The notes beneath the pieces are model-generated. The model searched no databases, was not told where the DNA came from, and was given only the letters and a program-made list of their open reading frames with translations. A program made the translations under genes and the position numbers. Positions 22,404-42,085 of a stretch of 64,000 bases of DNA are shown here, in pieces (position 1 is the first letter of the stretch; each line of letters opens with the position of its first letter). The DNA is from a virus: positions 1-64,000 of the IMG/VR virus record IMGVR_UViG_3300031576_000009; one strand, 5' to 3'.

Positions 22404-23399
22404 CTACGCGCCGAGGCTCCCCTTTGCTTTCTGCTGCTGTTCCTTGGCCTCGCGAATCTGACGCTTCAGATTCTGGTACTCGGACACGTCAGACGGGCGT
22501 CCCGACTTCCGTGCACGTACTTCGGCGTCGGCGAGCTTCGCTTCGAGCCCCTTGATCTGCTGATCCGAAGGCGCTCCACGACCTCCACCGGAACCCGCAC
22601 CGCCGTCTCCATTGGCCGCTTCGACGAGGAAGGGCATCTTCTGGAGAGCGGCAGCAACGCCCTCCGCGATCGAGACGATCGAACCATCCTTCTGCCTGTA
22701 CACGAACGACTTCTGCTTATCGTCCCAGACAACGTTCTCGCGCAGGACCTTCACGCCGACTTCGAGGTCGACGCACCGATTCTTCTGCAGTGCGGTGGCG
22801 AGCTCGGTGTCCCGAATTGCCGACGCCCTGGCCGTATCGGCTTCCTGCCGGAGCTTGCGCTCCTCCACGACCATCTTCCTGGTCTCGTCGTTGTCCTTCT
22901 TCTGCTGGTCGAGCGCATCGATCGCGCTCTTCAGCTGCTTGCCCTGGATGAACTGCGCCTTCTTCCAGGCTCGGTACGCGGCCGGGTCCTTGATACCGTT
23001 CGGGATCGTCAGCTCACGCTCGAACTCTTCGAGCTCGGGGAATGGGCTGTCCTTTCCGTTGCCGGTACCGCTGCCCGCACCGTCCCCTTCGAGGTCGCCA
23101 GCGGCCTCTTCGAGGAGCTGCTTCAGCGTGGTGTAGTCGGTGTTGAGCGCATCGAACGCTTCGCGATCCTTCTCGCGAGCCGTACGCTCCGCCTTCAGCT
23201 TCGCCTCGTGCTTGTCGCTCTCACGCTTGATGATACTGTTGAGAAGCTCCTGCTGCTCGGTCGTGAAGACGACCTTCGGCTTCTCCCCGCTACCGTCTCC
23301 GGTACCGGTACCGGTTCCGCCCCCGGCGTCACCACCACCGTCGACTGAACAAAACCGTCCAACGAACACGAGATTCCCGTACTGGTCTCTTACGTACAT
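22404..23399 (-). CDS. Capsid scaffold protein
   Basis: 331 residues, ATG at 23399 overlapping the portal stop. A Gly/Thr/Ser-rich low-complexity linker (GGGTGTGTGDGSGEK) is followed by long charged helices (KRESDKHEAKLKAERTARE; DQQKKDNDETRKMVVEE), another Gly-rich linker and a C-terminal basic helix (NLKRQIREAKEQQQKAKG). Coiled coil plus a basic C-terminal helix between portal and capsid is the usual scaffold design. No protease motif, so cleavage is not predicted from this ORF. Confidence 0.8.
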   Translation of the reverse strand: MYVRDQYGNLVFVGRFCSVDGGGDAGGGTGTGTGDGSGEKPKVVFTTEQQELLNSIIKRESDKHEAKLKAERTAREKDREAFDALNTDYTTLKQLLEEAAGDLEGDGAGSGTGNGKDSPFPELEEFERELTIPNGIKDPAAYRAWKKAQFIQGKQLKSAIDALDQQKKDNDETRKMVVEERKLRQEADTARASAIRDTELATALQKNRCVDLEVGVKVLRENVVWDDKQKSFVYRQKDGSIVSIAEGVAAALQKMPFLVEAANGDGGAGSGGGRGAPSDQQIKGLEAKLADAEVRARKSGRPSDVSEYQNLKRQIREAKEQQQKAKGSLGA

Positions 23400-25243
23400 C
23401 ACTTCCCTCCTTTGTCACCCGCGGAGTCGCGGTTCTTGCCCTTCGCTTTCTTCGCGGAAGGTCGCTTCTCGCCCTTTTTAGGAGGAGCTGGTGCTTCCTC
23501 CTCGTCCTCGTTCGGAGTCAGCGGCGATCGACTGATCTCCTCTGCGGTAGCCGGCGTTGCTGCCGGCTGTTGCGTTGGGTCGAAGTACATCGGCCCAAAG
23601 CCTGTGATCACGAGCTCCGGCATCACCTCGATTTCGGCGCTGATGAACTGATTCAGCAACGGCGATGCGTTACGAAGCATCTTGCGCACGAGTCGCTTCT
23701 CCACCTCGCGCTTGAAGGTCGGCGACCGAATGGTCTGCTTCGCCTTCAGCACGATGTCGAGCTCATCCGCAAAAGACTCCACGCTGAAGTCATCCGGGTA
23801 GTCGACGGTGCCCTGCCACTCGATGCCAAGCCACGCATGCCAGATACGGTGAATCTGGTTCTCGGCCATCTCGATCTCGTCCGCATGCTCGGCCAAGGTT
23901 CGGTTCGTCTCGTTGAACTCGAATGCCTGGGCGATACCGGACGGGACCTTCTGCGGCTGTACCAGACCGAGACCGCCCCCGAGCTTCGCGAGGCGATACA
24001 CCTCGTCCCGCGCCCGATCGATCATGGAGGCGATGAACGCACCCGGATCGGTCGACGGGGCCAGGAAGAACGGAGCGGTCGTGCCTTCCCACTCCAGCAC
24101 GTTGTCGCTCCCGATCGTGACTTCCTGCTTCTGCTCACGATCACGCTGCATGCAGAGGATGTTCAGCGTCTTCTGGTAGACCTCTTCATCGACCAAGCTC
24201 GACCAGTTGAGGATCGCGATGTTGATCCGGCAGATGTCCGCGATGAGGGAGACGCCGAACGACGGGTACTGACTGTGCCGCTTGTTGAAGAGCGTCACGA
24301 CCGGCACGCGTCCACACGGGTGCGCGCCGCGACCGATCTCCTGTGCCTGCCCGTTCTCCACCTGATGAATGAACCACGCATCGCGTGTCCAGGTGCGATA
24401 GATACCGTCGACCCGTCCCATCGGCCGCTCAGGACCGACGTACCGACCAGGAGTCTGCCGTCCTGACGGACCGAAGCTGCCGACAAACGCCGAGGCGCCG
24501 TAGCGGGCGATCGGCGCTCCACCACGCGGCGAGAACGGATCATTCTTCTCGGGAAGCGGCTCGCGGAACCGGCACCACAGAAACTCGCCGTTCTCGTCCA
24601 CGCCCCAGTCCGGCATCTCGGACGGGAAGTAGGTGGTCAAGTACGGACGCTGTCCGTACTTCAGCCGATCGGCCTCGCTACGAATCGTCGCGCCCTCGGG
24701 CAGCCGGGGCATGTCGACGACGATGTACACGTGCCCGAATGTGAACGCGTAGCGTGCCGCATCGGCCATGTACCGATCGATCGAGTTCCCCTTTCGATCG
24801 ACGTTGCGCAGCCAGTTCGCCCATTCGCTGGCCTCGGGCGATTCCGGCATGTCGCCGAGTTCACTCAAGCTCCCGAGCCCGAGGTTTTCGAGCACGTCGC
24901 CTTCGTACGACGGTGTCCGCAGCAGCTCTTCCGGTGTCTCCTTCCGCACCACCGGCTTCGCGAAGATGTAGTGCGTGTAGAGATCGACGACTGGCTGGCA
25001 GTAATTCAGGTAGTAGAGCCGCAGCCGACGCATGTCGATCGACTTCTGGCTCTCGCGGAGATGCTGGAACAGGTACCGCTCCAGGTGCTCACCCTCGTAG
25101 CAGTCGATGAAGCGGGTCCAGCGCGGCAGGAACTCCTGGTAGCGCGGGTGCGAGTCCGTCAACGCCCGCAGCATCACCTCGCCCCCCGGAGGGCTGATCA
25201 CGCCTTGCTGTTGCTGGCGGCGGAGTTGGCGAATGACGGCCAT
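23399..25243 (-). CDS. Portal protein (DUF4055-like)
   Basis: 614 residues; ATG at 25243 overlapping the preceding stop replaces a longer frame that reads into the upstream gene. Portal features: helical wing (FLPRWTRFIDCYEGEHLERY), QPVVDLYTHYIFAKPV, YMADAARYAFTFGHVYIVVD, 'RVPVVTLFNKR' and the long stem helix region ending in an acidic/basic tail. The pattern is that of DUF4055 portals paired with DUF5309 capsids. It forms the 12-subunit DNA channel. C-terminal ~50 residues are low-complexity Lys/Glu/Pro. Confidence 0.85.
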   Translation of the reverse strand: MAVIRQLRRQQQQGVISPPGGEVMLRALTDSHPRYQEFLPRWTRFIDCYEGEHLERYLFQHLRESQKSIDMRRLRLYYLNYCQPVVDLYTHYIFAKPVVRKETPEELLRTPSYEGDVLENLGLGSLSELGDMPESPEASEWANWLRNVDRKGNSIDRYMADAARYAFTFGHVYIVVDMPRLPEGATIRSEADRLKYGQRPYLTTYFPSEMPDWGVDENGEFLWCRFREPLPEKNDPFSPRGGAPIARYGASAFVGSFGPSGRQTPGRYVGPERPMGRVDGIYRTWTRDAWFIHQVENGQAQEIGRGAHPCGRVPVVTLFNKRHSQYPSFGVSLIADICRINIAILNWSSLVDEEVYQKTLNILCMQRDREQKQEVTIGSDNVLEWEGTTAPFFLAPSTDPGAFIASMIDRARDEVYRLAKLGGGLGLVQPQKVPSGIAQAFEFNETNRTLAEHADEIEMAENQIHRIWHAWLGIEWQGTVDYPDDFSVESFADELDIVLKAKQTIRSPTFKREVEKRLVRKMLRNASPLLNQFISAEIEVMPELVITGFGPMYFDPTQQPAATPATAEEISRSPLTPNEDEEEAPAPPKKGEKRPSAKKAKGKNRDSAGDKGGK

Positions 25244-25488
25244 CAACGAATGAGCGCGTGTTCGTGCCGCATCAGATTGCAGGGACCACAGCGCCAGTGC
25301 CGGATGAGCCCGCGACGATTCGAGTGCACGACCTCCGAGTGCAGGACCATCGGGCCACCACACTGATCGCAGGTCTGCACAGCCACGGTGACCGGCTCGT
25401 GCTTCTCCTCGACCTGTCCAGGGAATGGCATCGCAGCGATCTCTGCGAGTGCTGCACAGAGATTGTCCAGGCCCTCAGTGGCTTGCAT
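25243..25488 (-). CDS. Zinc-ribbon small protein
   Basis: 81 residues; ATG overlaps the terminase stop (TGATG). Two Cys pairs, CDQCGG (residues 40-45) and CGPCN (about 67-71), make a zinc ribbon. The first 30 residues form a helix (LDNLCAALAEIAAMPF). It lies between large terminase and portal. Possibly a packaging accessory or DNA/RNA-binding protein; no family recognised. Confidence 0.65.
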   Translation of the reverse strand: MQATEGLDNLCAALAEIAAMPFPGQVEEKHEPVTVAVQTCDQCGGPMVLHSEVVHSNRRGLIRHWRCGPCNLMRHEHALIR

Positions 25489-27869
25489 CAGTACAAACTC
25501 TCCATGCGTCGCGTGCGGACGGACGCGGCTCGCGTGCCGTAGCTGTACACGGCGTAGCGCAGGGCGTCGCTTGCGTGGTCGTTCTGCTTCACGATGACAT
25601 CCCGATTCGCGGTGCCGTCCCGTTCTACCTTGTGGCAGTACAAAGCACCGAGCTCTGCACGCAGTTTAGAACACCACTTGAAGATTCTCAATAGCGGCAG
25701 TTGCGTGGTCGGCTGCCGGCGGAACATGGCCTTCACCCGGTTGATTCCAGCGTAGACATCGTTGTTCGCTGGAATGAGGGATGGCCCGTTGTACCGACGC
25801 AAGTACTTCTGGAGATCGATGATCGCCTGCTTGCCGCTCGGGTCCGGGAACACCCACTCTTTCGAGCCGAAATCCGGGCTTGTACCGATCTGATCGGCGT
25901 GTCCTTCGAGTGGCCGGTCCTGATCACAGTAGTACTCGTGGTAGACGTACCAGGTCCCGCTGTGTGGATCGATGGCGCACTTCAGGTAGACGAAGTGCGA
26001 GCCGAAATCGATACCGGAGACGCGGGTCCAGTCGGCTGGGATTGGGAACGGATCACAGAGCCAAGGCTCCTCATCACGGAAGTGATCCCCGTACACGAGG
26101 ATCGCGCCGGAGGGGCGCAGATTCCGCCACTGCGTGTCCCAGGTATCCTTGTCGAGGAGCTGGACCTTCTTGACGAAGTCGTCGATCTTGTACCACCCGT
26201 CGCAGCTGTGGGCGATGCCGCCGCACATCTTCTCTTTGCGGCCATCCGGCATCAGCATCTCGTACGCCGGGCAGTCGCCGTACGTCTTGTCGCCCTGACA
26301 CTGACGCGTGCACTTCTCTAGCACCTCGAAGATGCACCACGAGTGGACCTTGATCTTCTTGTTGGCCGCCTCGTCGAGGAGCCGCTGCATCGTCCCCTTC
26401 TGGAACTTCCGGGTACTGGTCAGCGTGTCCTGGGCCTTCCATCCACCCTTCTCCATGGACATCTGCAAACCTTCTTGCAGCACGACCCACGGCATGAGCT
26501 CGATCTCGTCGCAGTTATGGACGAGGACGCCTTCTACGATGAAGCAGCGAACTCCGGGAACAGTCAGATCGTAAACAGGGCCGGTGGGTCCGCGATCAAC
26601 TGCAACAACCTCCACCACAGGTGCATGTGTTCGGTCCGTGCGTAGATCACGCGAAATCCCGTGGCTTCGAGCTCGATCTTCTTGCGTGCATCGCGCTCGA
26701 TCGATCGAGGCAAGTCGTGCCAGTACTGCCCGTGCACTTCGATCACTACGTTCCTGGTCAGGAGCACAAAATCGAGAATCCACTGCCTCCACACCACCTG
26801 ATGCTGAAAGGTCAAACCCCACAACCGAAGCAGCTCGATCATGCGATGCTCGGCTGATGAAACGAACCGTTTCGATCCTCGCCAACGCGCGGCGACCCGC
26901 TTCTCGTTCATCACCAGATGCGTACACTTCCGACAATGTTTCGTGTAACGCGTCGAGAGTGGTTTTCCACAACCTGGACACGGTTGCGGACGCCACCGAC
27001 TCGCTGCCTTCTCCAGCTTCCAACATTCGCGGCACAGATGTAGCCGCGTTGGTTGATGGCCATGAAGTTGCCGTTCGCACTTCGTACAGAAGTGAATCGC
27101 GAGCCGACGAACAGGGCCACGCCGTCCCAAGTTTGGTGCCAGCTTTGCAACGATCAGCGCGCAGCCACACTCCCTCGGCAGTGAGGAGACCGTGGTCTGG
27201 AGTACAGATGAGTGTTCGTCCGTTCGAGAGGTGGAGACGGATTGTCGCTTCAATTCCGGTTTGGCGAACTTCCGTGACATATCCGGTCGAAACGCGTTCG
27301 CCGGGGCGGATGAACTTGATCGCTTTGGTCGTGCCATCCGCCATCAATACACCACACTCCTCGAAAATGCAACGGAACTTGTTCGGGTGTGGTGAATTCA
27401 TACCATGATAGGTCCCCGCGATGATCTTCACCTTCGAGCCGTTCCAGAATTGGGTCTCCTTCATCAGCGGGCCACGCATGACCTGCTGGAAGAGGAGTCC
27501 TTCGTCGGTGAGGAATCGCATGAAGTACTCGTACCCACGATTCGCCTGCTCCATGATGGCGCCCGCAGAGCAGACTTCGACGCCTGGCTTGAAGAGCGCA
27601 TCGAGGATGTTGAGGATCGCGACCAGGAGCGTCTTGCCCCCACCGCGATTGGCGAATCCGATCGAGGTCCTGACCCGCTCGAAGAACTGATCAGAGAGGA
27701 AGTCCATCGGAGAGCAGTGCTGGGGGCATATCTTCTGTCGGGGCACACGGAAGCCGAAAAACTCCCAGACGAAGTCCCAGAGTTCGTCCTCCGTCCGCAG
27801 TCCGCGTTCGAGATGGTACTGGAACAGACTGCGACGGAGAACGTCCTTCGATGGAGCAGCGATTCCCAC
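25488..27869 (-). CDS. Terminase large subunit, interrupted by an intein
   Basis: 793 residues including 281 of intein; GTG start directly after the preceding stop. Walker A is FANRGGGKT (residues 72-80). Walker B is split by the intein: KFRCIFE-E at 165-171 and C-DEIEL after it, giving hydrophobic strand plus DE on splicing. The C-terminal nuclease part has SGIDFG (metal site), then HADQIGTSPDFG and HASDALRYAVY with the last catalytic Asp. The motor cuts and packages DNA through the portal. Because the intein sits in Walker B, unspliced protein should be inactive. Confidence 0.92.
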   Translation of the reverse strand: MGIAAPSKDVLRRSLFQYHLERGLRTEDELWDFVWEFFGFRVPRQKICPQHCSPMDFLSDQFFERVRTSIGFANRGGGKTLLVAILNILDALFKPGVEVCSAGAIMEQANRGYEYFMRFLTDEGLLFQQVMRGPLMKETQFWNGSKVKIIAGTYHGMNSPHPNKFRCIFEECGVLMADGTTKAIKFIRPGERVSTGYVTEVRQTGIEATIRLHLSNGRTLICTPDHGLLTAEGVWLRADRCKAGTKLGTAWPCSSARDSLLYEVRTATSWPSTNAATSVPRMLEAGEGSESVASATVSRLWKTTLDALHETLSEVYASGDEREAGRRALARIETVRFISRASHDRAASVVGFDLSASGGVEAVDSRFCAPDQERSDRSARAVLARLASIDRARCTQEDRARSHGISRDLRTDRTHAPVVEVVAVDRGPTGPVYDLTVPGVRCFIVEGVLVHNCDEIELMPWVVLQEGLQMSMEKGGWKAQDTLTSTRKFQKGTMQRLLDEAANKKIKVHSWCIFEVLEKCTRQCQGDKTYGDCPAYEMLMPDGRKEKMCGGIAHSCDGWYKIDDFVKKVQLLDKDTWDTQWRNLRPSGAILVYGDHFRDEEPWLCDPFPIPADWTRVSGIDFGSHFVYLKCAIDPHSGTWYVYHEYYCDQDRPLEGHADQIGTSPDFGSKEWVFPDPSGKQAIIDLQKYLRRYNGPSLIPANNDVYAGINRVKAMFRRQPTTQLPLLRIFKWCSKLRAELGALYCHKVERDGTANRDVIVKQNDHASDALRYAVYSYGTRAASVRTRRMESLY
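26514..27356 (-). mobile_element. Intein in terminase Walker B
   Basis: 281 residues from Cys172 (CGVLMADGTTKAIKF) to Asn452, followed by Cys453 (GVLVHN|C). Hint motifs: block B LICTPDHGLLTAEG, block F PVYDLTVPGVRCFIVEG. Class 1 residues Cys1, block B His, penultimate His and terminal Asn are all present. The central ~170 residues in this frame match no domain; instead a second frame in the same DNA encodes an endonuclease (26564-27130). Confidence 0.9.
26564..27130 (-). CDS. Nested alternate-frame endonuclease inside the terminase intein
   Basis: About 188 residues from TTG at 27130 (the frame stays open to an ATG at 27337, but that part looks like non-coding shadow of the intein start). 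Two zinc ribbons: FCTKC and LCREC, then CPGC and CRKC. A Vsr-like/DUF559-type PD-(D/E)XK core follows: SAEHRMIELLRLWG, FQHQVVWRQWILDFVLL, VVIEVHGQYWHDL, with candidate active residues Glu, Asp and His-Asp. It is in the +1 frame relative to the terminase and intein. No separate RBS is clear, so expression could use TTG or frameshifting. Confidence 0.7.
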   Translation of the reverse strand: MGRRGPVRRLAIHFCTKCERQLHGHQPTRLHLCRECWKLEKAASRWRPQPCPGCGKPLSTRYTKHCRKCTHLVMNEKRVAARWRGSKRFVSSAEHRMIELLRLWGLTFQHQVVWRQWILDFVLLTRNVVIEVHGQYWHDLPRSIERDARKKIELEATGFRVIYARTEHMHLWWRLLQLIADPPALFTI

Positions 27870-32412: not shown

Positions 32413-32672
32413 CAGTTGTCCCTCCCGCGACCCTGCTGCTTCTCCAGCTTCTTCACCTGACCCGCAGGCATCTTGCGCGCTTCGTCCAGCACGTCACGCA
32501 TCTCCTCACCCTTTGGCTGGCGCCCATGCTGCTTGACGAACTCCTCCTCGGCGGCGCGCAGCTTCCGCTGCATGCCCATGAGCGTCGTGCTCGTACTCGT
32601 ACTCGTCGTAGTGCTCGTCTCGGCGAGTGCCGACGACACGAGTACCAATACGCACAACAGGATGCGGATCAT
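32412..32672 (-). CDS. Small exported protein with Thr-rich linker
   Basis: 86 residues; ATGA overlap. Signal peptide MIRILLCVLVLVSSALAE, then a Thr/Ser linker (TSTTTSTSTSTTLM) and a charged helix (KLRAAEEEFVKQHGRQPKG) ending GRGRDN. An export signal followed by Thr linker and helix is like the 134-residue protein at 44536-44940; both could be spanin-like or periplasmic proteins. Confidence 0.6.
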   Translation of the reverse strand: MIRILLCVLVLVSSALAETSTTTSTSTSTTLMGMQRKLRAAEEEFVKQHGRQPKGEEMRDVLDEARKMPAGQVKKLEKQQGRGRDN

Positions 32673-33212: not shown

Positions 33213-34394
33213 TCAGAGCTTCCTCCCGTACAGGCGATAGAACTCCTCGACGGCTGCCGTCTCAGGATGGTTCGCACGGCGCAAGCGCCGGATGAGGGAC
33301 GTAGGGTTTGAGGCTGCCCTGCCGTAACGTGTGAGTGGAACGTTCATACCACCAAACGACCACGGGGATTCGGTCGCCCGGCGATAGACCGTCTTCCGCT
33401 CTCCGAGATCGATCTCCCTGTAGTTGACACGCTTGATCCGCGACAGGATTGCCGCCGGCTTCGACGCCTTGCTGATTGCCACCTTAGTGGTCGTCGCTCG
33501 CTGCACACTGCGCGACGGCAAGGCGATGCGTTCGCGGGGAATGGTACTTGTACGTTGAAGCTCACGCAGAACAGTCCGGTGTCGTTCCGTAATACTCGGA
33601 GCTGACGAGATGGTGCGAAGATGCTGTACTGTATCAACTAGCCGAGCAGGAACACGATAATACATGCGTCCCTCTTTCTCAAACCGTGGTAGCCCACGGC
33701 GCACACCGGACAGCATCTGACCCACGGCGCGGCGCTCTCGCTCGATGATCGCCGGCAGTCCTCGCCCCTTGAAAACGATCGAGGGATTGGTCGTGATCTG
33801 CTTCGGTATTCCCCGCCGTCCCTCCAGTGCACGGCTGCCCAGCAGGGCGATCGGACCGCCCGCCACGTAGCCAAGCATCCCATGCACGCGCGTGAGCGCG
33901 GCCATGTTGGGCACCATGTAGAGCGAGCGACCACCGGGCCACATATCACCGGGGTAATCGGTACCAAGCCGGCGAGTTACTGCACGGCCGACCCGCTTGA
34001 CCAACTCGTTCGTCTGCCCTGAGAGCGCGCCCTGCTGCAGCGCGGTCCGCTTGCGTCCGAGCCAGCCACGGTAGGCCTGCTTCGCAAGCTCCTTTCCTTC
34101 ATCCGTCGTGCGGCGGATGCGCTTATCGAGGAAGAGGTGGAAGTCACCGACGAACTCGGTGAGCGGGCGCTTCACGTTGACGAAGCGGTTGACGAGTGAG
34201 CTGACCCGTACGCCCTTGACCGGACCACCGATTAGCATCCGCGCCAGGGACATCGATCCCGCTCGGCGCGCTCCCGCTCGCGCAAGGACGGCGCTGGAGT
34301 ATGCAGACTTCGCCCAGATCGCTCGCCACTGCGCCGCCGTCAGGCGGCGGTGCCGCGAAAGCATACGCTGGGTCCGTGAGAGTACCGCCATCAT
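33213..34394 (-). CDS. Basic helical protein with N-terminal QWRAIWAK module
   Basis: 393 residues, ATGA overlap. Residues about 18-31 (LTAAQWRAIWAKSAY) match the module shared with eight neighbours. The rest is strongly basic with Arg/Ala-rich helices (RGWLGRKRTALQQGA) and some Gly-Pro loops (HGMLGYVAGGPIALLG). No enzyme motif seen. Possible internal virion or ejected protein by association with the block. Confidence 0.6.
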   Translation of the reverse strand: MMAVLSRTQRMLSRHRRLTAAQWRAIWAKSAYSSAVLARAGARRAGSMSLARMLIGGPVKGVRVSSLVNRFVNVKRPLTEFVGDFHLFLDKRIRRTTDEGKELAKQAYRGWLGRKRTALQQGALSGQTNELVKRVGRAVTRRLGTDYPGDMWPGGRSLYMVPNMAALTRVHGMLGYVAGGPIALLGSRALEGRRGIPKQITTNPSIVFKGRGLPAIIERERRAVGQMLSGVRRGLPRFEKEGRMYYRVPARLVDTVQHLRTISSAPSITERHRTVLRELQRTSTIPRERIALPSRSVQRATTTKVAISKASKPAAILSRIKRVNYREIDLGERKTVYRRATESPWSFGGMNVPLTRYGRAASNPTSLIRRLRRANHPETAAVEEFYRLYGRKL

Positions 34395-35131
34395 AGCGAC
34401 GACTTCCGGTAGTTCCTCCGCGCCACCTGAAAGGTGCGCGCGAGCTCCAGGCGCCGAGACCGAATGCGGTTCACAACCGCCCGCTTTAGTGCCCGACGGG
34501 CACGATCATCAATCGTGATCCGACTGATCGCACTCTCCATTGGCGGCACTACCCCACGCCATTGTCCTGCTGCCCGCCGTACGGAGTCGGCCGAGATGCG
34601 AAAGTGCCGCATCACTTCCGCCTGTGTGTCGCTCAGCGGGCTACCGAACGCCGCACTGCGGATCGCCTTCGCGATCGGGCGCGAGGCCTTGTTGATGGCT
34701 GTCTTTCCGAACTGATAGGCGGCCTTCTGCGCATCGTCGGCCATCGATTCGAGTGGACGCTCGACATCGAGTGGCGAGGCGCGCTTGTGGAGCTTCCACC
34801 ACGGGGCAGTCGGATCGCCGGGGATCGCCTCCTTGGCGAACTTCCGACGAAGCACGTCGTGGAGAAGCTTCTTCAGCTTCCCAACGAGCACATCCTGTGT
34901 CCGCCAAGGCTCATTCGCCTCGAAGTGCTGGGTGAAGCCGACGACACGCTTCCCACCTTCGAAGTTCGGACGGACCGCTTCACCCAGACCGCTGGAGATA
35001 CCGGTGAACTTCTCCTTCGCCACGCCAACGATCGCGGCGACACGACCGTAGCGCGCGACACGCTGCGCAGCCTTGGCGAAGATAGCCCGCCACTGCTGAC
35101 GCGTGATCAGATGTCGGGCAGCGCTGAGCAT
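34391..35131 (-). CDS. Basic helical protein with N-terminal QQWRAIFAK module
   Basis: 246 residues; next gene starts in an ATGA overlap. The module is ITRQQWRAIFAKAAQ (residues about 9-23), the closest relative being the downstream neighbour's QWRAIWAK. The body is helical and basic, with QFGKTAINKASRPIAKAIRS and a C-terminal Arg-rich stretch. No known family. Confidence 0.6.
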   Translation of the reverse strand: MLSAARHLITRQQWRAIFAKAAQRVARYGRVAAIVGVAKEKFTGISSGLGEAVRPNFEGGKRVVGFTQHFEANEPWRTQDVLVGKLKKLLHDVLRRKFAKEAIPGDPTAPWWKLHKRASPLDVERPLESMADDAQKAAYQFGKTAINKASRPIAKAIRSAAFGSPLSDTQAEVMRHFRISADSVRRAAGQWRGVVPPMESAISRITIDDRARRALKRAVVNRIRSRRLELARTFQVARRNYRKSSL

Positions 35132-35134
35132 CGA

Positions 35135-35836
35135 TCAGTCGACGCGCTCCCGCGCCCGTGTAGCCCGCTGCCGTTCGAGCTCGCGAGCGATCCGCCGGTA
35201 CTCACTCTTATAGTGCGCGAGCTGCATCCCGCCCTCGTTCTCCATCGTCTTCAGGAGGTTGGTCATGTGCTCGGCCATGATCGCCTGCCCGAGCGGCGAA
35301 TTTTCCTGGCCGATGCGGCGGAGATTGTCGCGGAGCGACTTCACCTCGCTCAGGATGTGCTCGCGTTCGAAGCCGCGGCGGAGCTTGCTCCGCCGCTCGA
35401 TCGGATTCGTGAGCAGGCCCATGCGAGGCTCACCGCCCGTGATAATGGTCTGGATCGCCCCGAGGGGACGACGCAGACGCTTCCGCAGCGCCTCTTCGCG
35501 GGCAACGCTGCGCTCTGCGAGATGGCGCTCGGCCTCCCGTGCGAGATAGTCGAGCCCCCAGGAGATTGGGAGCTCAGTGACCTTCGCGGCCGTCGAGGCG
35601 ATCCGGGTCGCAACATCCGACACGTCCGCTGCCGCCACGCGCGCTTTGGCCTTCTCCTTCTGCATGGCGGCGTACCGCTTCGCACCACCAGGCGCTCCCA
35701 AGATGTACTTGCCGCCTCTGGCTGCGGTGCGACCGACGGCCGCGGCGCTCACACGAATCGGCACGGCGATACGACGCCCGCCGTGCCGAATGGTTCGCCA
35801 GATGACTCCCTCTCGCTTGGTCGACTCGTCTGCCAC
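35135..35836 (-). CDS. Basic helical protein of the module block, without the module
   Basis: 233 residues, GTG start with TAGGAG. N-terminus MADESTKREGVIWRTIRHGG, then Arg/Ala-rich helices and a coiled-coil-like C-terminus (EYRRIARELERQRATRARE). It shares composition with the neighbours but not the QRRA motif, so it serves as an internal contrast when testing the module hypothesis. Confidence 0.6.
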   Translation of the reverse strand: MADESTKREGVIWRTIRHGGRRIAVPIRVSAAAVGRTAARGGKYILGAPGGAKRYAAMQKEKAKARVAAADVSDVATRIASTAAKVTELPISWGLDYLAREAERHLAERSVAREEALRKRLRRPLGAIQTIITGGEPRMGLLTNPIERRSKLRRGFEREHILSEVKSLRDNLRRIGQENSPLGQAIMAEHMTNLLKTMENEGGMQLAHYKSEYRRIARELERQRATRARERVD

Positions 35837-35845
35837 AGTAGACTC

Positions 35846-36535
35846 CTAATAGTCGTGCTGCCGCTGGATCACTCCGGCGACGCGCGGATCGTACGTGGGG
35901 CGATGTGGACGGCTGACGACCACCGGCGCCGAGTACTGTTCGATGCCGCGCTGCAGCTGCGTCCGATGGCGTACCTTCGAGCGCGCACGCGTGTAGAGCC
36001 TGTAGCCGATGTGTCCGGCACCGATGACCGGCAGTGCGGTTGCGGCGAATCCGGCTGCTCCGCGCACGCGGCGCAGGTATGTGAACGCGGACTGCATCGC
36101 TTCGCGCCCTCCTCCAGGAGCAATGAACGCCCGGTGGATGGAGGCCTTCCCCTGCCACGCCCGCTTCGCGGCCAGCATGGCGGCATGTGTTGCCGTGTTC
36201 GCAGTGTCGCCTACACGAGCGGCGCCAACGGCTTCGTAGAGCGATCGCGCGATCCGCGGAGCGCGCATGGTCGCGACATACGTCTTGCGCAGAACCTGCG
36301 TCCGTCCCCGGAACGTTCGGGACAGCCGATGCGCCCCATAGGCAGCGAGCCCGTATCGCGCCGCGATGGGCACTTCCGGATAGTCCCGGTCCGGGTTGGC
36401 GGCGATGAGCCCGACTGTTCCGATGGCCACGCGCCGATGCACGGTCGGTGAGCGCACGAAGCCGCCGAACTTCTCCCGTGCCAGCCGGAGTGCGATCGCA
36501 ACCGCAGCTCTTTGTTGTTGGTTCACGAATCGCAT
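35846..36535 (-). CDS. Basic protein with degenerate N-terminal QQRAAVA module
   Basis: 229 residues, ATG at 36535. Starts MRFVNQQQRAAVAIALRLAR: the QRAA part is kept, FARL is replaced by AIAL. The body contains hydrophobic pieces (GTVGLIAANPD; GAAGFAATALPVIGAGHIGY) between Arg-rich helices. Likely the same class as its neighbours. Confidence 0.55.
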   Translation of the reverse strand: MRFVNQQQRAAVAIALRLAREKFGGFVRSPTVHRRVAIGTVGLIAANPDRDYPEVPIAARYGLAAYGAHRLSRTFRGRTQVLRKTYVATMRAPRIARSLYEAVGAARVGDTANTATHAAMLAAKRAWQGKASIHRAFIAPGGGREAMQSAFTYLRRVRGAAGFAATALPVIGAGHIGYRLYTRARSKVRHRTQLQRGIEQYSAPVVVSRPHRPTYDPRVAGVIQRQHDY

Positions 36536-36538
36536 GCG

Positions 36539-36805
36539 TTACCTCACGTGCACCACTGGTGCGCGGACCTTCTGGAACGGCCGCTGGAAGCGGAACAGCC
36601 GCTCCCGAAGTATTCTACTCACTCGCCGGATTGTTAGCACGTCGCCCATCCGAGCTCCGAGACGGATGATAGGATGTCGCAGCACACGAGCAGCGACAAC
36701 CGCAGCCCCAAGGCTCGCGAGCTTGATGTTCCGACGGCGCCGGGCTCGTCGATTACGGATCGAGGCCATCACAGCCCGACGCTGTTCATCCGAAGTGAAG
36801 CGCAT
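36539..36805 (-). CDS. 88-residue protein with N-terminal DEQRRAVMASI module
   Basis: The ATG at 36805 is used because it overlaps the preceding stop (TGATG). Starts MRFTSDEQRRAVMASIRNRR; the core Q-R-R-A is intact. Then a very basic stretch (RRARRRRNIK), a hydrophobic helix (LASLGAAVVAARVL) and basic C-terminus. Short version of the module proteins. Confidence 0.6.
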   Translation of the reverse strand: MRFTSDEQRRAVMASIRNRRARRRRNIKLASLGAAVVAARVLRHPIIRLGARMGDVLTIRRVSRILRERLFRFQRPFQKVRAPVVHVR

Positions 36806-36975
36806 CACGGACCTGTACGGAACCGTTCTGGCATTCCCGATGCGAATGCCGTGCGATTAGCTCCTTTCATCACCGAGGGCCCACTGGTACGGAATAGCGG
36901 CTTCGCCTTCTTGGGACCCGATTGCTTGCGTCGGATCGTCTTGATCGAGGTCATGTACTTCCGTGGCGTGAACAT
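36805..36975 (-). CDS. 56-residue basic protein
   Basis: ATG at 36975 preceded by GAGGGTGGG; the TGA overlaps the next ATG. Begins MFTPRKYMTSIKTIRRKQS and contains PKKAKP and NRTAFASGMPERF. pI very high. It fills the gap after the sigma factor exactly. Could be a DNA-binding peptide; no family. Confidence 0.6.
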   Translation of the reverse strand: MFTPRKYMTSIKTIRRKQSGPKKAKPLFRTSGPSVMKGANRTAFASGMPERFRTGP

Positions 36976-36994
36976 CAGCGTCCCACCCTCGTCT

Positions 36995-37654
36995 TCATGC
37001 CGCTCTCCTCATCTTCGCGAACTCACTCACGGTGACGTACTGATTCAACCGCTTGATTGCCCGCTGTTGAATCTTCTTAATGCGCAACGGCTTCATACGC
37101 AACCGCTGGGCGACGGCCTTCGCGGGCAAATCCTGCAGCACTCGGAGTTGCAGTACTCGCCGTTCTTGGAGTGGGAGACGGCGCAGGAGCTGCTGCACGT
37201 GCACGCGGGACTCGACCGCACCGATCCCACCATCATCGGCGTGGCGTCCGCCGTGCACCTCGGGAGCAAACTCGACAGTCGACGGGAGCGGGCCAAGCGC
37301 CGCGAGCTTCTTGATGTGCCGCTCCGGGACGCGTACGGTCGTCTTCTGAATCTCGCGCAGGACCCGATTGCGGATCGCGATTACCGCCCCGGTCGAGAAG
37401 CGCGTGCTCCGGCGTGGGTTGTAGCGGCGGGCGAACTCCAAGAGCCCCACATTTCCGGCCGAGATCAGGTCTTCGCGCATGCCCTCGATACGTGGGCCGA
37501 ACTTGCGCATGTGCTGCCCCACGACCTTGTGGACGAGCCCCTGGTTATGCTCCGCCAGGCGGGCGAATATGGCCCGACGCTGCCGATCGGACATCATCTT
37601 CCGACGACCGAGCCGGCGTGCTCCCATACGGCGAATGGCGGCCTGGCGTCTCAC
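36995..37654 (-). CDS. Sigma-70 family factor carrying the QRRAIFARL module
   Basis: 219 residues from GTG 37654 (GTGA overlap); ATGs at codons 10, 20 and 21 are alternatives. Residues 22-33 are SDRQRRAIFARL, the block module. Region 2 follows: GLVHKVVGQHMRKFG, then EDLISAGNVGLLEFARRY and RFSTGAVIAIRNRVLREIQ. Region 4: LPLQERRVLQLRV, then LPAKAVAQRLRMKPLRIKKIQQ (helix-turn-helix, split here by wording). No regions 1.1 or 3 of size. It should bind core RNA polymerase and recognise a promoter. Placed among putative virion proteins, it may be carried in the particle. Confidence 0.85.
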   Translation of the reverse strand: MRRQAAIRRMGARRLGRRKMMSDRQRRAIFARLAEHNQGLVHKVVGQHMRKFGPRIEGMREDLISAGNVGLLEFARRYNPRRSTRFSTGAVIAIRNRVLREIQKTTVRVPERHIKKLAALGPLPSTVEFAPEVHGGRHADDGGIGAVESRVHVQQLLRRLPLQERRVLQLRVLQDLPAKAVAQRLRMKPLRIKKIQQRAIKRLNQYVTVSEFAKMRRAA

Positions 37655-37845
37655 GTCTTGTCCTTCTTCTCCTCCGGCGGAGGGTGCTCCGTGAGCAAAC
37701 GCTCCAGCTGCGCGATCTGCGCCATCTCGATCCGCACGTTCATGCGATTGATCAGTTTGATCGCGATCGGCTTGCCGACGTGCTTCGCCACGCGATTGAA
37801 GTGGATCGCACGGAGTAGGTTTGATCGGTGTGGTTCGTTCATCAT
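37651..37845 (-). CDS. 64-residue helical small protein
   Basis: ATGA overlap at the start, GTGA overlap with the sigma gene at the end. Basic helical first half (NLLRAIHFNRVAKHVG) and acidic/Pro end (LLTEHPPPEEKKDKT). Sequence too short for family. Coupling to the sigma factor suggests a possible partner (for example an anti-sigma or chaperone), but that is speculation. Confidence 0.55.
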   Translation of the reverse strand: MMNEPHRSNLLRAIHFNRVAKHVGKPIAIKLINRMNVRIEMAQIAQLERLLTEHPPPEEKKDKT

Positions 37846-38267
37846 GATCCACCACCTCGACGATCACGCTCGTGTCGCTCTCGATCTGCTTTCTGCAAAT
37901 TCTCCAGGCGATCCACGAAACGCTCCATGCCCAACTGGGTCCGATTGTGAAAGTCGCGATCCTGCTCTTCGTGCATCGTCTGTCGAGTTTCCTGCTTGAT
38001 CATCCGACCATTCAGTTTCGCCATCTCGGTCTGTACTTCACCAATCTTCATCTCGATGCCGGACAGATCGCGACGGTGATCGGCACGAAAGAGATCGAAC
38101 TCCTGCTTGTTCTCCTTGCGGAGCTCCAAGATCGATCCCTGCATCGCTGACTGGCTATGATCGATCTTCGAACGCAGCTGTCGCGCCATGCGCAGCATGC
38201 CGACGAAGCCCGTCGTCATGAAGAACAAGATCAGCCCACTTAGGACTTCGCCCCAGTTGATCGACAT
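37842..38267 (-). CDS. Membrane-anchored coiled-coil protein
   Basis: 141 residues; ATG at 38267 starts MSINWGEVLSGLILFFMTTG, a single N-terminal membrane span, followed by a long coiled coil (RQLRSKIDHSQSAMQGSILE ... LNGRMIKQETRQTMHEEQ). It resembles an inner-membrane spanin (Rz-like) or DUF1640/XhlA-like cell-lysis protein in design. It overlaps the membrane protein just upstream. Confidence 0.6.
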   Translation of the reverse strand: MSINWGEVLSGLILFFMTTGFVGMLRMARQLRSKIDHSQSAMQGSILELRKENKQEFDLFRADHRRDLSGIEMKIGEVQTEMAKLNGRMIKQETRQTMHEEQDRDFHNRTQLGMERFVDRLENLQKADRERHERDRRGGGS

Positions 38268-38548
38268 GCGTTCTCCATACGCTTGATCGCCCGAGCTAGA
38301 TGGCAGAACTGTGAACGATTGAACTGTCGGTTTTGCAGAATCTCCTGCCGGTTCCTCTGTGACTGTTTGGCGAGCTCCTCCGGCGGATAGGTAACCCGCA
38401 GTCCCGTAAGCGTCGCAACAATAATCAACACGGAGGCGCACGCGATGACGATGATGGTCCAGATCACCACCCGCTCGCCGGTCAGCGGGCGCCAACGTCG
38501 CGCTACCCCTGGCTCTGCCAACGATGCGCTTCCAGGCTCTTCTTCCAT
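38240..38548 (-). CDS. Small single-span membrane protein
   Basis: 102 residues from ATG 38548, which overlaps the glycosyltransferase gene by 46 bases; GTG codons at 38470 or 38467 are alternatives without such overlap. A basic pre-segment (ARRWRPLTGER) is followed by one span (VVIWTIIVIACASVLIIVA) and a charged helix. With its downstream neighbour it could form a two-gene lysis or membrane module. Start is uncertain. Confidence 0.5.
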   Translation of the reverse strand: MEEEPGSASLAEPGVARRWRPLTGERVVIWTIIVIACASVLIIVATLTGLRVTYPPEELAKQSQRNRQEILQNRQFNRSQFCHLARAIKRMENACRSTGAKS

Positions 38549-39336
38549 GCCTCGAATCCCGGTGGGAGGTCGATGTCGATCGGAAAGCGCTGGCCGCTGA
38601 TCTCCATGTGCCAGCAGAACATCCGCGTATCGACGAGGAAGGGGAACCGCTTCGTGACGAGCGACTTCCATCGCGTCTTGGCCAATGCCTTCGACTCGAT
38701 GACTCTGGTACAGAAGTTCAGGTCCTCGGTGCCGACCTGCCGTGCCCACATTCCCGTCTCGGGATCACAGAACGTGGCCCGCGGCGTGATGAACACCTGA
38801 CGGACCTCGCTGCGATCGGACAGGCGAATCTTCGACGCCTTCTTCGCCATCGCTATCAGGAGCTCGCGATGAATCATGGTGAAGCCCATGCCCATTCCAT
38901 CGCACCACACCTGGTCACCGAGCTTGAAGTCCCGGAACGCCCCGTTGCCGCGCCCGCGGTAGATGAGCGGCTCCGCCGGGTAGCTCTTGGTGTAGTACAG
39001 ACCGGCGATGATCGGCGTGGGAGGCTTCCGCATGAACTCGTCCGCCCAGATGAACGTGTTCGGAGGACAGAGCACGTCGTGATCGAGGAAGAAGAGCCAC
39101 TCCCGTCCGTTCTGCAGGAAGGTACGCACCAGCAGATTGCGCGCCTCGGCGACGCTGTAGCCCAGCGTCGAGGAAGTCAGCTGGGCCGTGTGCGTCGACT
39201 CCCAGTTGGTCGGGATAATGATGCCCGAGTTGGCCAGATGCCACTCGTACCGAATGACGCCCGTCGTCGGGATGCAGAGATGCACCCGTGGCCGATGCGG
39301 CGTCTTGTTCACCTTCAGGTCGAGTACTTTTCCCAT
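38503..39336 (-). CDS. GT-A glycosyltransferase-like protein
   Basis: 277 residues; ATG at 39336 with RBS AGAGGT (the longer frame is shadow). N-terminal strand VHLCIPTTGVIRYEWHLA, AEARNLLVRTFLQ, and the metal-binding region WLFFLDHDVLCPPNTF (D-H-D in place of DxD) mark a GT-A fold. CDGMGMGFTMIHRELL and the late EDLNFCTRV are typical GT2 acceptor-site positions. It lies inside the QRRAxFARL block next to a methyltransferase gene. Confidence 0.75.
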   Translation of the reverse strand: MGKVLDLKVNKTPHRPRVHLCIPTTGVIRYEWHLANSGIIIPTNWESTHTAQLTSSTLGYSVAEARNLLVRTFLQNGREWLFFLDHDVLCPPNTFIWADEFMRKPPTPIIAGLYYTKSYPAEPLIYRGRGNGAFRDFKLGDQVWCDGMGMGFTMIHRELLIAMAKKASKIRLSDRSEVRQVFITPRATFCDPETGMWARQVGTEDLNFCTRVIESKALAKTRWKSLVTKRFPFLVDTRMFCWHMEISGQRFPIDIDLPPGFEAWKKSLEAHRWQSQG

Positions 39337-39364
39337 CGGTACCTCTACAGACGGAAGCCACTCA

Positions 39365-39751
39365 TCAGTAACCTCGCCGCTGAATGCGCTGTGCGACCCG
39401 GCGTTGAATGTCCCGACCGCGCGCCCGTGCGATGAGGCCCACGCGCCGCGTCCGCGCCTGAGCAACGACCGTTCGCGCGCCGCGCGCTGCGCTGGACATA
39501 CCGAACTTGAGCCCGCTCGTGATCGCCTTCGAGATGCCGAGTCGTGACGCTGCTGCGCCGCCGAGCACTCCTGCGCCCAGAACCCCAGCTGCAAGGAGGC
39601 CGTATCCGGCCACCCTCCCGGCCCGGCCGAGATCACGATATGTTGCTCCACTCTTCGTCCGCTTCGTCCCACGGCCACTGCCGCTCTTACCCTCGTTCAG
39701 CCGAGCGAACATGGCAGCGCGCTGCTGCGGAGACATACGAGTAACGGGCAT
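39365..39751 (-). CDS. Gly/Ala-rich protein with N-terminal QQRAAMFARL module
   Basis: 128 residues; ATG at 39751. Module MSPQQRAAMFARLNEGKSG. A basic linker (GRGTKRTKSG) and a hydrophobic Gly/Ala-rich span (GYGLLAAGVLGAGVLGGAA) come next, then Arg-rich helices to the end (RDIQRRVAQRIQRRGY). Membrane-active or internal virion protein by look. Confidence 0.6.
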   Translation of the reverse strand: MPVTRMSPQQRAAMFARLNEGKSGSGRGTKRTKSGATYRDLGRAGRVAGYGLLAAGVLGAGVLGGAAASRLGISKAITSGLKFGMSSAARGARTVVAQARTRRVGLIARARGRDIQRRVAQRIQRRGY

Positions 39752-39753
39752 GA

Positions 39754-40341
39754 TCAAATCTCCTGTGATCCCTTCTGCGCGATATTGACCTTACGTTTCA
39801 CGCCGACCTTGAGGAGCTTCTTCAAGAGCTCCGGCTCCTTCACGACACGCATGATGACTTCCATGTTGCCGACCACGTTCCATTCCAGCCGCTCCAGGAA
39901 GAGCGGCGGTGGCTCGTAAATGCGGTACAGGATGTTCGGCTGACCGTTCTGTGGGCGTGGATCGAAGTACTGCCAGGTGGCCTCGTTGAACCCCGGTCGC
40001 GTGTGCGTCGGGTCCTGGTAGGCACCGAACGAGCCTGCGTACGGTACCGAGATCAGCACCTGACAGCCATGCTTCCCGACCCGGTAGATTTCGGCCATGA
40101 CCGCGAGGAAGTTCCGCGGATCGATGTGCTCCAGGATATGGCTGGCGAGGATCGTGATGCAGCTGTCATTCGGGATCGGCCACGGCATCTTCTCCAAATC
40201 GTGGATGAAGTCCGCTTCGGGGATCGGACGCTTGTCCATCCCAACGTAGCCCTGCTGCTTCGCCCGACCACAGCCGATGTCGAGCTGGATGCCGCCCTTC
40301 TCATCGAGCAGCTTCTGCAGTTCGTCGTGTGCGACGGCCAT
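39754..40341 (-). CDS. SAM-dependent methyltransferase
   Basis: 195 residues, ATG at 40341 with AGAGGAG. Class I motifs: IQLDIGCGRAKQQGYVGMD (motif I), then ILASHILEHIDPRNFLAVM (motif II/III region) and VLISVPYAGSFGAYQD. The HILEHI and PYAG features match the MTase family associated with glycan or small-molecule methylation (Methyltransf_11-like). It lies next to module proteins and one gene away from a glycosyltransferase. Confidence 0.8.
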   Translation of the reverse strand: MAVAHDELQKLLDEKGGIQLDIGCGRAKQQGYVGMDKRPIPEADFIHDLEKMPWPIPNDSCITILASHILEHIDPRNFLAVMAEIYRVGKHGCQVLISVPYAGSFGAYQDPTHTRPGFNEATWQYFDPRPQNGQPNILYRIYEPPPLFLERLEWNVVGNMEVIMRVVKEPELLKKLLKVGVKRKVNIAQKGSQEI

Positions 40342-41067
40342 TCACGTACTCCTCTGTCGACGACGATCCCGAATCCGCTGCCAGAAGGACAGCGTCGGTG
40401 ACGCCGTGATGTGGTACAGTCTGCGAATCTGGTGCGCCTGGCGCGTGGCAGGCAACGCAGTCGACGCGAGCGTGCCGGCCGCGAAGAGGATCGCACCCTT
40501 CCCGGAAACCTTTGGCTGCTCCTCGATGAGCCGCGGCTGACTCCGATGGTGCTGGAGCTTGATGCCGGTGTACGCCGTACCGACAGCTGCCGCCGCGAGC
40601 GGGACGACATGCCCGAGCAGAAAGCCCATGCGGGTGCTGGTCAGATTATTGCGCGACCATATCCGCTTCGGCGTGTAGATCGGAATCGAGTGGACGAGCG
40701 CGCGTTCACCTAGAAAGCTGCTGACGCCCAGCAGGGCTTGCCCCAAGAGCGCCTTCTTCTTCGTCCGCACGGTCTCGGAGGCCGGCTTCCCCCGGAACTT
40801 CTGAGCAAAAATTGTGCCAATTACCGGTGCGGCGGCGTAGGCGGCCACATACGGACCCCATGCCTTGGGGAACTTCCGCAGGGGGACGTGGGAGACACTC
40901 TCACGGATCGCAAAACCACCCGCCAGGAGGCTCCCAGAGCCCACCAGAGCCATTTGCACGCCGGGGGATAGCTTCCCCCACCGACGCTTCACGACACGGG
41001 CTCCTCTGCGGACCTGACGCAGCCGAGCGAACATCGCCCGCCGCTGGTCGTCCGGGATGAGCCTCAC
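40342..41067 (-). CDS. Protein with N-terminal DDQRRAMFARL module
   Basis: 241 residues, GTG start in a GTGA overlap: VRLIPDDQRRAMFARLRQVR. After the module the chain has alternating hydrophobic and basic parts (VQMALVGSGSLLAGGFAIRE; WGPYVAAYAAAPVIGTIFAQ; LLGHVVPLAAAAVGTAYTG), several of which could span or insert into a membrane. No enzyme motif. Confidence 0.6.
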   Translation of the reverse strand: MRLIPDDQRRAMFARLRQVRRGARVVKRRWGKLSPGVQMALVGSGSLLAGGFAIRESVSHVPLRKFPKAWGPYVAAYAAAPVIGTIFAQKFRGKPASETVRTKKKALLGQALLGVSSFLGERALVHSIPIYTPKRIWSRNNLTSTRMGFLLGHVVPLAAAAVGTAYTGIKLQHHRSQPRLIEEQPKVSGKGAILFAAGTLASTALPATRQAHQIRRLYHITASPTLSFWQRIRDRRRQRST

Positions 41068-41549
41068 AGGCGGAGCCTCGCCCGGAAGAGCCGCTGGACC
41101 CGGCCACTCGACCCGATGAGCCCTCCGATGAGCTGCGGCCCGACCTTCTCGATCTTCTGACGCTCTGTGCGGCGCCCGAGGATTGTCCGGCGGATGAGGT
41201 AATCCCCAAGCACGTAGGCCGGAATCTCGACCGCGGCCGTACGCAGGATGTTTCCCGCGAGTACGCGCCCACGTACGCGTGTGCGAAAGAGCTTCGTCCC
41301 GCGGCCCACGGCCCGCGCGGAGGCGCGCACGCCGAAGCGGCCGAAGAACTTGGTCACCGGGCGTGCAGCGCCGAGCCTGCTAGTCAGGTAGCCACCCACG
41401 GCGAAGGCCGGAATCGCGATCGCGGTCTCGGTCACGTACGGATGGCGCTGATAGAACGAACGAGCGATTGCCTGACCTCGTGCGATGGGTCGAGCTCCAC
41501 GGAGCCGAGCGAAGATTGCACGACGCTGTTGTTCGTTCTGGAAGGTCAT
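41064..41549 (-). CDS. Protein with N-terminal QQRRAIFARL module
   Basis: 161 residues; the ATG at 41549 (ATGA overlap) is chosen over a longer shadow. MTFQNEQQRRAIFARLRG. The body contains Ala/Ile hydrophobic segments (ETAIAIPAFAVGGYLTSRLG; ILRTAAVEIPAYVLGDYLI) and basic helices, ending VQRLFRARLRL. Same architecture as 40342-41067 and 41546-42085. Confidence 0.6.
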   Translation of the reverse strand: MTFQNEQQRRAIFARLRGARPIARGQAIARSFYQRHPYVTETAIAIPAFAVGGYLTSRLGAARPVTKFFGRFGVRASARAVGRGTKLFRTRVRGRVLAGNILRTAAVEIPAYVLGDYLIRRTILGRRTERQKIEKVGPQLIGGLIGSSGRVQRLFRARLRL

Positions 41550-42085
41550 GTGAGAAGCTTCAGTACAGGTTGGGTCTTCGCCATCCACACACGCATATTT
41601 CGCATGCGGGCCGCAGGCGTGTAGGTTGGTGCGAAGGTCCGCTTCAGCACCGATCTCATTTTCGCACTCGCTGACCACATCTTTGGGCGAACGCTTCGCG
41701 TGACAACACGAACGACGTTCCGAATACCTCCCGGCCCGAGAGCAGCGATCGGGAGTGAGGCAAGTCCGCCGACAACAAAACCAGCACTCTGCTGCATCGT
41801 CGACTTCGTGCTCTTTTGCTTATCGACATTGAATCTATTCACGCCGCTGAGCGCAAGTGCCGTACCGGTAAGGAATCGCGACATCGACATCCTGGACAAC
41901 ACGACTGGAGCACCGCCGCGCCGCCGCCGAGCGGACATCATGGCCCGCGCGTTCCCACGCACGAGTATTCCCGTACCGGCTCCATACATCACCCCAGCAC
42001 TGAAGCCCTTGCCGAAGGGGGTTGTCCCACGCAGCCGGGCGAACATGGCGCGGCGCTGTCGGTCATCTCGTCGTATGGTTCTCAT
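41546..42085 (-). CDS. Protein with N-terminal DRQRRAMFARL module
   Basis: 179 residues; ATGA overlap. MRTIRRDDRQRRAMFARLRG, nearly identical in the module to the sigma factor (DRQRRAIFARL). Then FGKGFSAGVMYGAGTGILVR, Arg-rich patches, a hydrophobic part (SAGFVVGGLASLPIAALGPG) and a basic C-terminus. First full module protein in transcription order. Confidence 0.6.
   Translation of the reverse strand: MRTIRRDDRQRRAMFARLRGTTPFGKGFSAGVMYGAGTGILVRGNARAMMSARRRRGGAPVVLSRMSMSRFLTGTALALSGVNRFNVDKQKSTKSTMQQSAGFVVGGLASLPIAALGPGGIRNVVRVVTRSVRPKMWSASAKMRSVLKRTFAPTYTPAARMRNMRVWMAKTQPVLKLLT

Follow-up and report, generated by a model that had tools for sequence, protein, structure and literature searches.

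The nine neighbouring minus-strand genes at 33213-42085 of the window (the whole stretch analysed, the first 64,000 nucleotides of IMG/VR record IMGVR_UViG_3300031576_000009) raise the question of why otherwise different phage proteins should begin with the same short peptide. The consensus of this N-terminal tag is approximately M-R-F-x-S-(D/E)-x-Q-R-(R/K)-A-(V/I/M)-(F/M)-A-(R/K)-L, and all nine N-termini were found as the first-pass annotation had described them. That annotation read the tag as a shared targeting signal, for capsid loading, for binding to a scaffold or portal, or for cleavage during maturation.

Six of the nine copies are strong, the other three degenerate. The strong tags are carried by basic proteins of 179 aa (41546..42085; tag RDDRQRRAMFARLR at 42029-42070; net charge +32), 161 aa (41064..41549; tag QNEQQRRAIFARLR at 41499-41540; +27), 241 aa (40342..41067, with hydrophobic segments; tag IPDDQRRAMFARLR at 41017-41058; +34) and 130 aa (39365..39757; tag MSPQQRAAMFARLN at 39695-39736; +24), by a sigma-70-like factor containing regions 2 and 4 (200 aa; 36995..37597; tag MSDRQRRAIFARLA at 37553-37594; +26) and by a very basic protein of 89 aa (36539..36808; tag TSDEQRRAVMASIR at 36755-36796; +21). 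The gene at 39365..39757 starts with TTG, an alternative ATG at 39751 being possible. A degenerate tag (VNQQQRAAVAIALR at 36485-36526; 5.3 bits) is carried by the basic protein of 229 aa at 35846..36535, and variant forms are found in basic proteins of 246 aa (34391..35131; ITRQQWRAIFAKAA at 35066-35107; 12.1 bits) and 393 aa (33213..34394; LTAAQWRAIWAKSA at 34302-34343; 7.3 bits; +53), the start of the latter gene overlapping the stop of the former (ATGA). Three untagged genes lie among them, coding for a basic protein of 233 aa (35135..35836, minus strand), a methyltransferase (39754-40341) and a glycosyltransferase-like protein (38503-39336).

The bit scores derive from a 14-column profile built with sequences from other phages only; these had themselves been retrieved with the tag core, so that the scores are partly non-independent. 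The strong tags reached 36.1, 34.4, 32.3, 30.1, 26.9 and 25.0 bits, and the top score over 200 shuffled proteomes was 19.1 bits. When only N-termini were ranked, the nine tagged proteins occupied ranks 1-9 of 146. Shuffling of the N-termini gave a chance per protein of 0 in 73,000 shuffles for the strong tags and of 1e-4, 1e-3 and 2.7e-3 for the weak ones. A relaxed six-frame scan of the 101,720-bp record recovered eight of the nine tags, each at the N-terminus of genes of the block; the remaining matches were out of frame or unrelated look-alikes, and the tag is confined to the block. The tag codons of the nine genes differ at synonymous sites, so the conservation is at the level of the protein.

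Beyond the tag the proteins differ, as had been claimed: their bodies show no clear pairwise homology (best match E = 0.013), and the proteins at 41546 and 41064 share ~22 N-terminal residues. Several bodies had been called basic, and in fact all nine are strongly so, with a charge per residue of 0.107-0.245 versus a mean of -0.003 for 96 other proteins (P = 1e-6).

A divergent relative, G407 (53% identity in the capsid protein, 44% in the portal and 46% in the terminase), also encodes nine tagged proteins, directly upstream of its terminase (TerL) gene, and these include a sigma homologue and a P-loop NTPase. Many untagged G407 proteins are basic too (tagged vs untagged, P = 0.01). G407 was detected only through the QWRAIFAK variant, which is that of the protein at 34391..35131 and recurs in the G407 gene 47285-47716. 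The weak forms are corroborated there, where both QWRAIFAKL and MRFxxxxQRKAV are present; the tag at 35846..36535, weak alone, has an MRF prefix like the G407 tags. The N-terminus encoded at 36539..36808 is 64% identical over 22 aa to that of a G407 tagged protein. Only two bodies are homologous across the phages, those of the sigma factor and of the 40342..41067 protein, the latter matching two G407 tagged proteins, and the tag thus persists while the cargo changes. No near-identical DNA was found in GenBank phages, nor were close relatives of the sigma factor or major capsid protein found in IMG/VR by peptide patterns, and the portal-related phages nickie and B1VFA showed no tag within the 45-49 kb examined.

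The assignment of the sigma factor (36995-37597) is based on region 2 (PF04542, 1e-7, 32.1 bits, curated cut-off 24), region 4 (PF04545, 1.2e-6, 28.4 bits, curated cut-off 24.1) and a match to phrog_351 (1.7e-24). For this gene, ATG 37597/37594 is a more likely start than GTG 37867. The first helix of other phage sigma factors is vaguely similar to the tag. A reading of the tag as an ordinary sigma N-terminus was rejected, since the sigma factors of three other phages scored at most 3.7 bits and since in the tagged G407 homologue a linker separates the tag from sigma region 2. AlphaFold single-sequence models were uninformative (pLDDT 48 for the sigma factor and 38 for the 41064 protein). Literature searches turned up neither a sigma factor packaged in virions nor a shared short tag with this sequence.

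Outside these two phages the strict tag is rare, with four matches in 2.9 million viral contigs and eight in ~85,000 bacterial and archaeal genomes, and the only plausible gene among those eight encodes a prophage head protein. Several matches to the tag core in viral and cellular contigs were discarded as out of frame or antisense. The first-pass annotation had held wide occurrence in non-virion proteins to be incompatible with its reading; the strict tag proved almost absent from cellular genes. In Mu-like prophages all the coding matches found fall in the head module, between the portal and major capsid protein genes (five of five genomes and two IMG/VR contigs): inside the PF10123 protease-scaffold, in the next gene, which encodes an SNase domain (PF00565, 1.5e-13 and 4e-10), and in a gene before the protease; some of these tags are internal in large proteins and not N-terminal. 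Among 388 genomes of one phylum, all seven tag matches lie in head modules, with none for a control pattern. In that phylum no tag above 20 bits was seen in the 30 PF10123 loci with the best scores, so that the tag on PF10123 proteins is a lineage feature. A tblastn search of GenBank phages with two 21-aa consensus tags, a query length near the statistical limit, returned no match, and with a 51-aa consensus for the related PPVSEAQRRAMFAA module four matches were obtained, all weak (best E = 0.03).

It is unlikely that the likeness between this tag and that of the Mu-like head modules reflects convergence on a common amphipathic helix, in which case function could not be transferred from one to the other. 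The core spans only ~9 residues and is not diagnostic alone, because other phages have a look-alike (QRRAMFASL) within their HK97-gp10-like neck proteins, and the Mu-like sequences were retrieved using the tag core itself. However, strict matches are rare and yet fall in head modules seven times out of seven in that phylum, and the flanking columns (S/T-D/E-x-Q) agree as well.

A peptide retained through turnover of its basic cargo, and present on head-module proteins elsewhere, probably represents a procapsid-lumen targeting (cargo-docking) signal, which would work like the capsid-targeting sequences of T4 and P1. Within the annotated targeting role, capsid loading or scaffold binding is the part best supported, by the Mu-like head-assembly proteins and by G407. 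The tag would probably form a short helix, opening with S/T/D-x-x-E/Q and continuing as Q-R-K/R-A-(V/I/M)-(F/M)-A-K/R-L, that may bind one partner common to all clients during prohead assembly. This partner would most likely be the scaffold or else the major capsid protein, bound at its inner face. The corresponding candidates in this phage are a head scaffolding protein (22404..23399; phrog_14063, 2.3e-6), itself with no significant tag (9.4 bits, chance level), and the major head protein (21172..22308; phrog_1328, 1.7e-59). They are encoded on the minus strand, as are the portal protein (23399..25243; phrog_145, 5.6e-59) and the terminase large subunit (25488..26495; phrog_5653, 3e-12), the latter lying downstream of the tagged cluster; the tagged genes lie outside this block, at a distance of 7-16 kb. 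Once docked, the basic proteins would be trapped in the head and co-packaged with DNA through their positive bodies, to be ejected later into the host, where the sigma-70 factor could at once redirect the host RNA polymerase to phage promoters. In G407 the cargo would add a P-loop NTPase, the function of each cargo protein being presumptive.

The cationic peptide, the basic bodies and clients that include a P-loop NTPase as well as a sigma factor would also suit a host-takeover or nucleic-acid-binding helix on proteins that stay unpackaged and act inside infected cells, with RNA polymerase or DNA as possible targets. We consider this quite unlikely, as the same peptide stands in the Mu-like protease-scaffold, which acts before DNA entry and for which binding of RNA polymerase would serve no purpose.

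Cleavage during maturation, the remaining part of the annotated role, gained no support. None of the head-protease families PF04586, PF03420, PF00574, PF10123 and PF09979 is present in this record, which may be incomplete, and no LxE/IxE-type cleavage site common to the tagged proteins was found after the tag. A role as the recognition or cleavage signal of a head-maturation protease, by which proteins would be marked for trimming while docking would be incidental, is very unlikely: the Mu-like tag does directly follow the PF10123 protease domain and recurs further into the scaffold part, and DUF2213 head proteases have a different QRRAMFAA module at their N-terminus, but besides those absences a cut near the tag would free almost nothing but the tag. 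Descent of the nine genes from one duplicated basic protein, with only the N-terminus still recognisable, is highly improbable despite the two similar N-termini at 41546 and 41064 and the homologous bodies of G407 44606 and 45499, given that no single family could embrace the sigma-70 factor, the P-loop NTPase and the PF10123 proteases and SNase-domain protein tagged elsewhere, and that the remaining bodies lack clear homology.

A wider form of the cargo-docking reading is possible, and we put it forward tentatively: a portable capsid-loading peptide may have spread between unrelated head types, those of a siphovirus-like phage of 100 kb and of Mu-like prophages, filling the head with at least nine exchangeable basic effectors, among them a packaged sigma factor that reprograms the host RNA polymerase from the onset of infection. 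If so, a one-line sequence test would pick out head cargo in uncultured phages, and what phages inject besides DNA, answered by T4 and P1 for few model systems, would become testable. Carrying a sigma factor in the virion would be a simple means of takeover, and the peptide would offer a new handle by which proteins could be loaded into phage capsids.

Among known systems, the T4 capsid-targeting sequence (CTS) of IPI-III and Alt has the same arrangement, a short N-terminal sequence on several otherwise different proteins, nine in each of the present phages. The T4 CTS comprises 10-20 N-terminal residues common to diverse internal proteins, retained while the cargo repertoire diversifies (PMC3012670; PMC5694885), and lysines of the T4 internal proteins are described as touching packaged DNA (PMC3012670). 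Unlike the T4 CTS, which is removed by the gp21 protease, the present tag occurs in a phage of different type, in whose record no gp21-type (S77, PF03420) protease was found, and it is unrelated in sequence to the targeting sequences of both T4 and P1. In the Mu-like phages, where the scaffold coding sequence lies in frame inside the protease gene (PMC2628397), the protease-scaffold (PF10123 / phrog_328) of some prophages of one phylum carries the same peptide, although this phage lacks the PF10123 domain, so that the peptide and not the protein is common to both. The phrog_16759 module, PPVSEAQRRAMFAAxxGxSxxGIPxxVGxEF, likewise has a QRRAMFA core, which lies close to the N-terminus in DUF2213 head proteases and also occurs in small stand-alone proteins; it is longer, with a conserved GIPxxVGxEF, matched none of the tagged proteins at E <= 1, and its kinship to the tag is unproven. 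In SPN3US/phiKZ-type giant phages N-terminal propeptides are thought to target ejection proteins to the prohead and, unlike this tag, exceed 100 residues in most cases and are cleaved, with no peptide of this sequence seen among those in the available part of the source (PMC5694885). The N-terminal 30 residues of P1 DarB suffice to send a reporter into the capsid (PMC9024508), a signal shown for one protein, whereas here one peptide is common to at least nine proteins per genome. Polyvalent proteins, T4 Alt and the N4 virion RNA polymerase are packaged with the DNA and injected for host takeover, including transcription (PMC5512222); such effectors are mostly multidomain, whereas here single bodies, a sigma factor among them, are joined to a common portable peptide.

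All nine named minus-strand genes between 33213 and 42085 (intervals starting at 41546, 41064, 40342, 39365, 36995, 36539, 35846, 34391 and 33213) begin with the short peptide described in the first-pass annotation, whose core is of the QRRAxFARL type; the N-termini confirmed this claim, which was then extended with a profile, a relative and other phages. The 14-column profile, built solely from tags in head modules of other phages, placed the nine proteins at ranks 1–9 of 146 when only N-termini were scored and gave 25–36 bits for six window proteins, compared with a maximum of 19.1 in 200 shuffled proteomes; its core columns are partly circular because those outside tags were retrieved via the core motif, but their genomic context is not. 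Three copies (34391, 33213 and 35846) are weak taken alone. In the full record of G000, the phage containing the window, a relaxed scan of all six frames did not find the tag elsewhere in a plausible reading frame. Synonymous sites of the tag codons vary between the nine genes and therefore the tag is conserved at the protein level rather than being a recent DNA repeat.

After removal of the first 40 residues, the bodies of all nine proteins were strongly basic (net charge per residue 0.107 to 0.245 vs a mean of -0.003 in the 96 others, P = 1e-6), and no clear similarity was found when they were compared with each other. Pfam and PHROG searches gave no significant family for these bodies, except for the sigma factor at 36995–37597, in which sigma-70 regions 2 and 4 were detected and which also matches phrog_351 (1.7e-24). 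Since the tag of this protein adjoins region 2 and the first helix of other phage sigma factors loosely resembles it, a chance likeness to an ordinary sigma first helix had to be excluded; it was rejected, with three other phage factors at 3.7 bits or less vs 30.1 for 36995–37597.

The single contig matched in a viral scan for the QWRAIFAK variant comes from G407 (IMGVR_UViG_3300045922_001059, 56,375 bp), whose head-tail module is collinear with that of G000 (identities of 53% for the MCP, 44% for the portal and 46% for TerL) and which is a true relative. Immediately upstream of its terminase lie nine proteins with N-termini at 20–33 bits, the next-best protein scoring 2.0; a score of at least 20 appeared anywhere in 1 of 300 shuffled proteomes. 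All 18 tags of the two phages have in common the Q and, three residues further on, the A. Tagged proteins of G407 include a P-loop NTPase and a sigma homologue with a linker between its tag, FRSDAQRKAVMAKLRG, and region 2. Homologous bodies in both phages are restricted to the sigma and 40342-like proteins; the cargo turns over while the tag persists. Many basic proteins of G407 carry no tag, so that being basic and being tagged do not coincide in this phage (P = 0.01). One basic protein (G407 51040–51294; L200:13040–13294) contains a GKRFTALRRALAAKGARNPGALAAWIGRKKFG segment, which resembles another short module, one of many phage head proteins.

The QRRAMFA core is also placed inside neck proteins labelled HK97-gp10-like from the look of their sequences, and within a longer N-terminal module, PPVSEAQRRAMFAAxxGxSxxGIPxxVGxEF (phrog_16759), of DUF2213 head proteases from diverse phages (L044, L056, L059, L075, L084, L110 and others; DUF2213 confirmed in the first three). 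This module also forms small stand-alone proteins, and the proteases bearing it often have NUDIX or other domains inserted. The core by itself is not diagnostic, though both contexts are structural.

The same peptide was seen in the Mu-like head modules of two IMG/VR contigs (G001 and G002), directly after the PF10123 protease domain, a second time farther along this protease-scaffold polypeptide, and close to the N-terminus of the protein from the gene that follows. When about 85,000 genomes were scanned with the strict pattern, eight matches came up, and just one of them reads as a plausible gene; it belongs to a Verrucomicrobia MAG, in a prophage whose head module holds four tags. Among 388 genomes from this phylum, five contained the pattern and none the reversed control. 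In these five genomes every match has the portal gene on one side and the MCP gene on the other, and belongs to the PF10123 protease-scaffold or to a neighbouring gene. Mu-like phages encode the scaffold in frame inside the protease gene (PMC2628397), so the peptide marks forming-head proteins in these unrelated phages. In two cases the gene downstream of the protease has an SNase domain (PF00565, 1.5e-13 and 4e-10). A Mu-like head-module protein of 1149 aa (L157:8880–12329, from G057) carries five tag copies; Gly-rich linkers come after several of them, and the protein looks like a fusion of five tagged units. Mu-like phages do not carry the tag in general: 112 of the 388 genomes have PF10123, and the best 30 PF10123 loci of the phylum all lacked a tag above 20 bits.

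G000 is an IMG/VR virus record of 101,720 bp, of which the window covers 64 kb, with nearly all called genes on the minus strand. Its head module comprises TerL (25488–26495), portal (23399–25243), scaffold (22404–23399) and MCP (21172–22308), with the tape measure gene farther along. A DNA search of GenBank phages found no near relative; the nearest relatives of the portal are 112–122-kb phages at about 25% identity. A single 1137-aa gene lying between the head genes and the tail genes (15407–18820; 963 aa in its G407 counterpart) matches a glycosyltransferase, a methyltransferase and a second glycosyltransferase family. The two proteins at 643–4716 and 43451–44539, for which the PHROG search found no match, appear to consist of tandem repeats about 22 aa long that follow the pattern LRISxxDTxTxxDxVVK(L/V)xxNPL. 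Sec-signal-like hydrophobic N-termini occur on unusually many proteins for a phage (30319–32412, which also has a collagen-like GPxGPKGDTG stretch, 32412–32672, 47537–47992, 49820–50809, 50806–51741, 51738–52733 and 56036–57232), and the alike N-termini of 49087–49812, 52715–53422 and 53422–54150 (...D(D/Y)EIEG... or DDYIEG) give them the look of paralogues.

The shared tag had been read at first as a targeting signal for capsid loading, scaffold or portal binding, or maturation cleavage. T4-like cleavage is not supported, because the five head-protease families searched for are absent from G000 and no common cut site was found after the tag in its tagged proteins. Capsid loading is the best available interpretation in the light of the head-module tags elsewhere and of G407, and from this association we infer a prohead-docking or cargo-loading signal. 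The peptide would dock proteins inside the prohead to scaffold or MCP; in the case of G000 and G407 the proteins loaded this way would be basic effectors that travel with the DNA. Such a signal can be short, as the N-terminal 30 residues of P1 DarB suffice for packaging (PMC9024508). In its action the tag would resemble a T4/P1 capsid-targeting sequence, but it stands outside the T4 CTS family as defined by protease removal.
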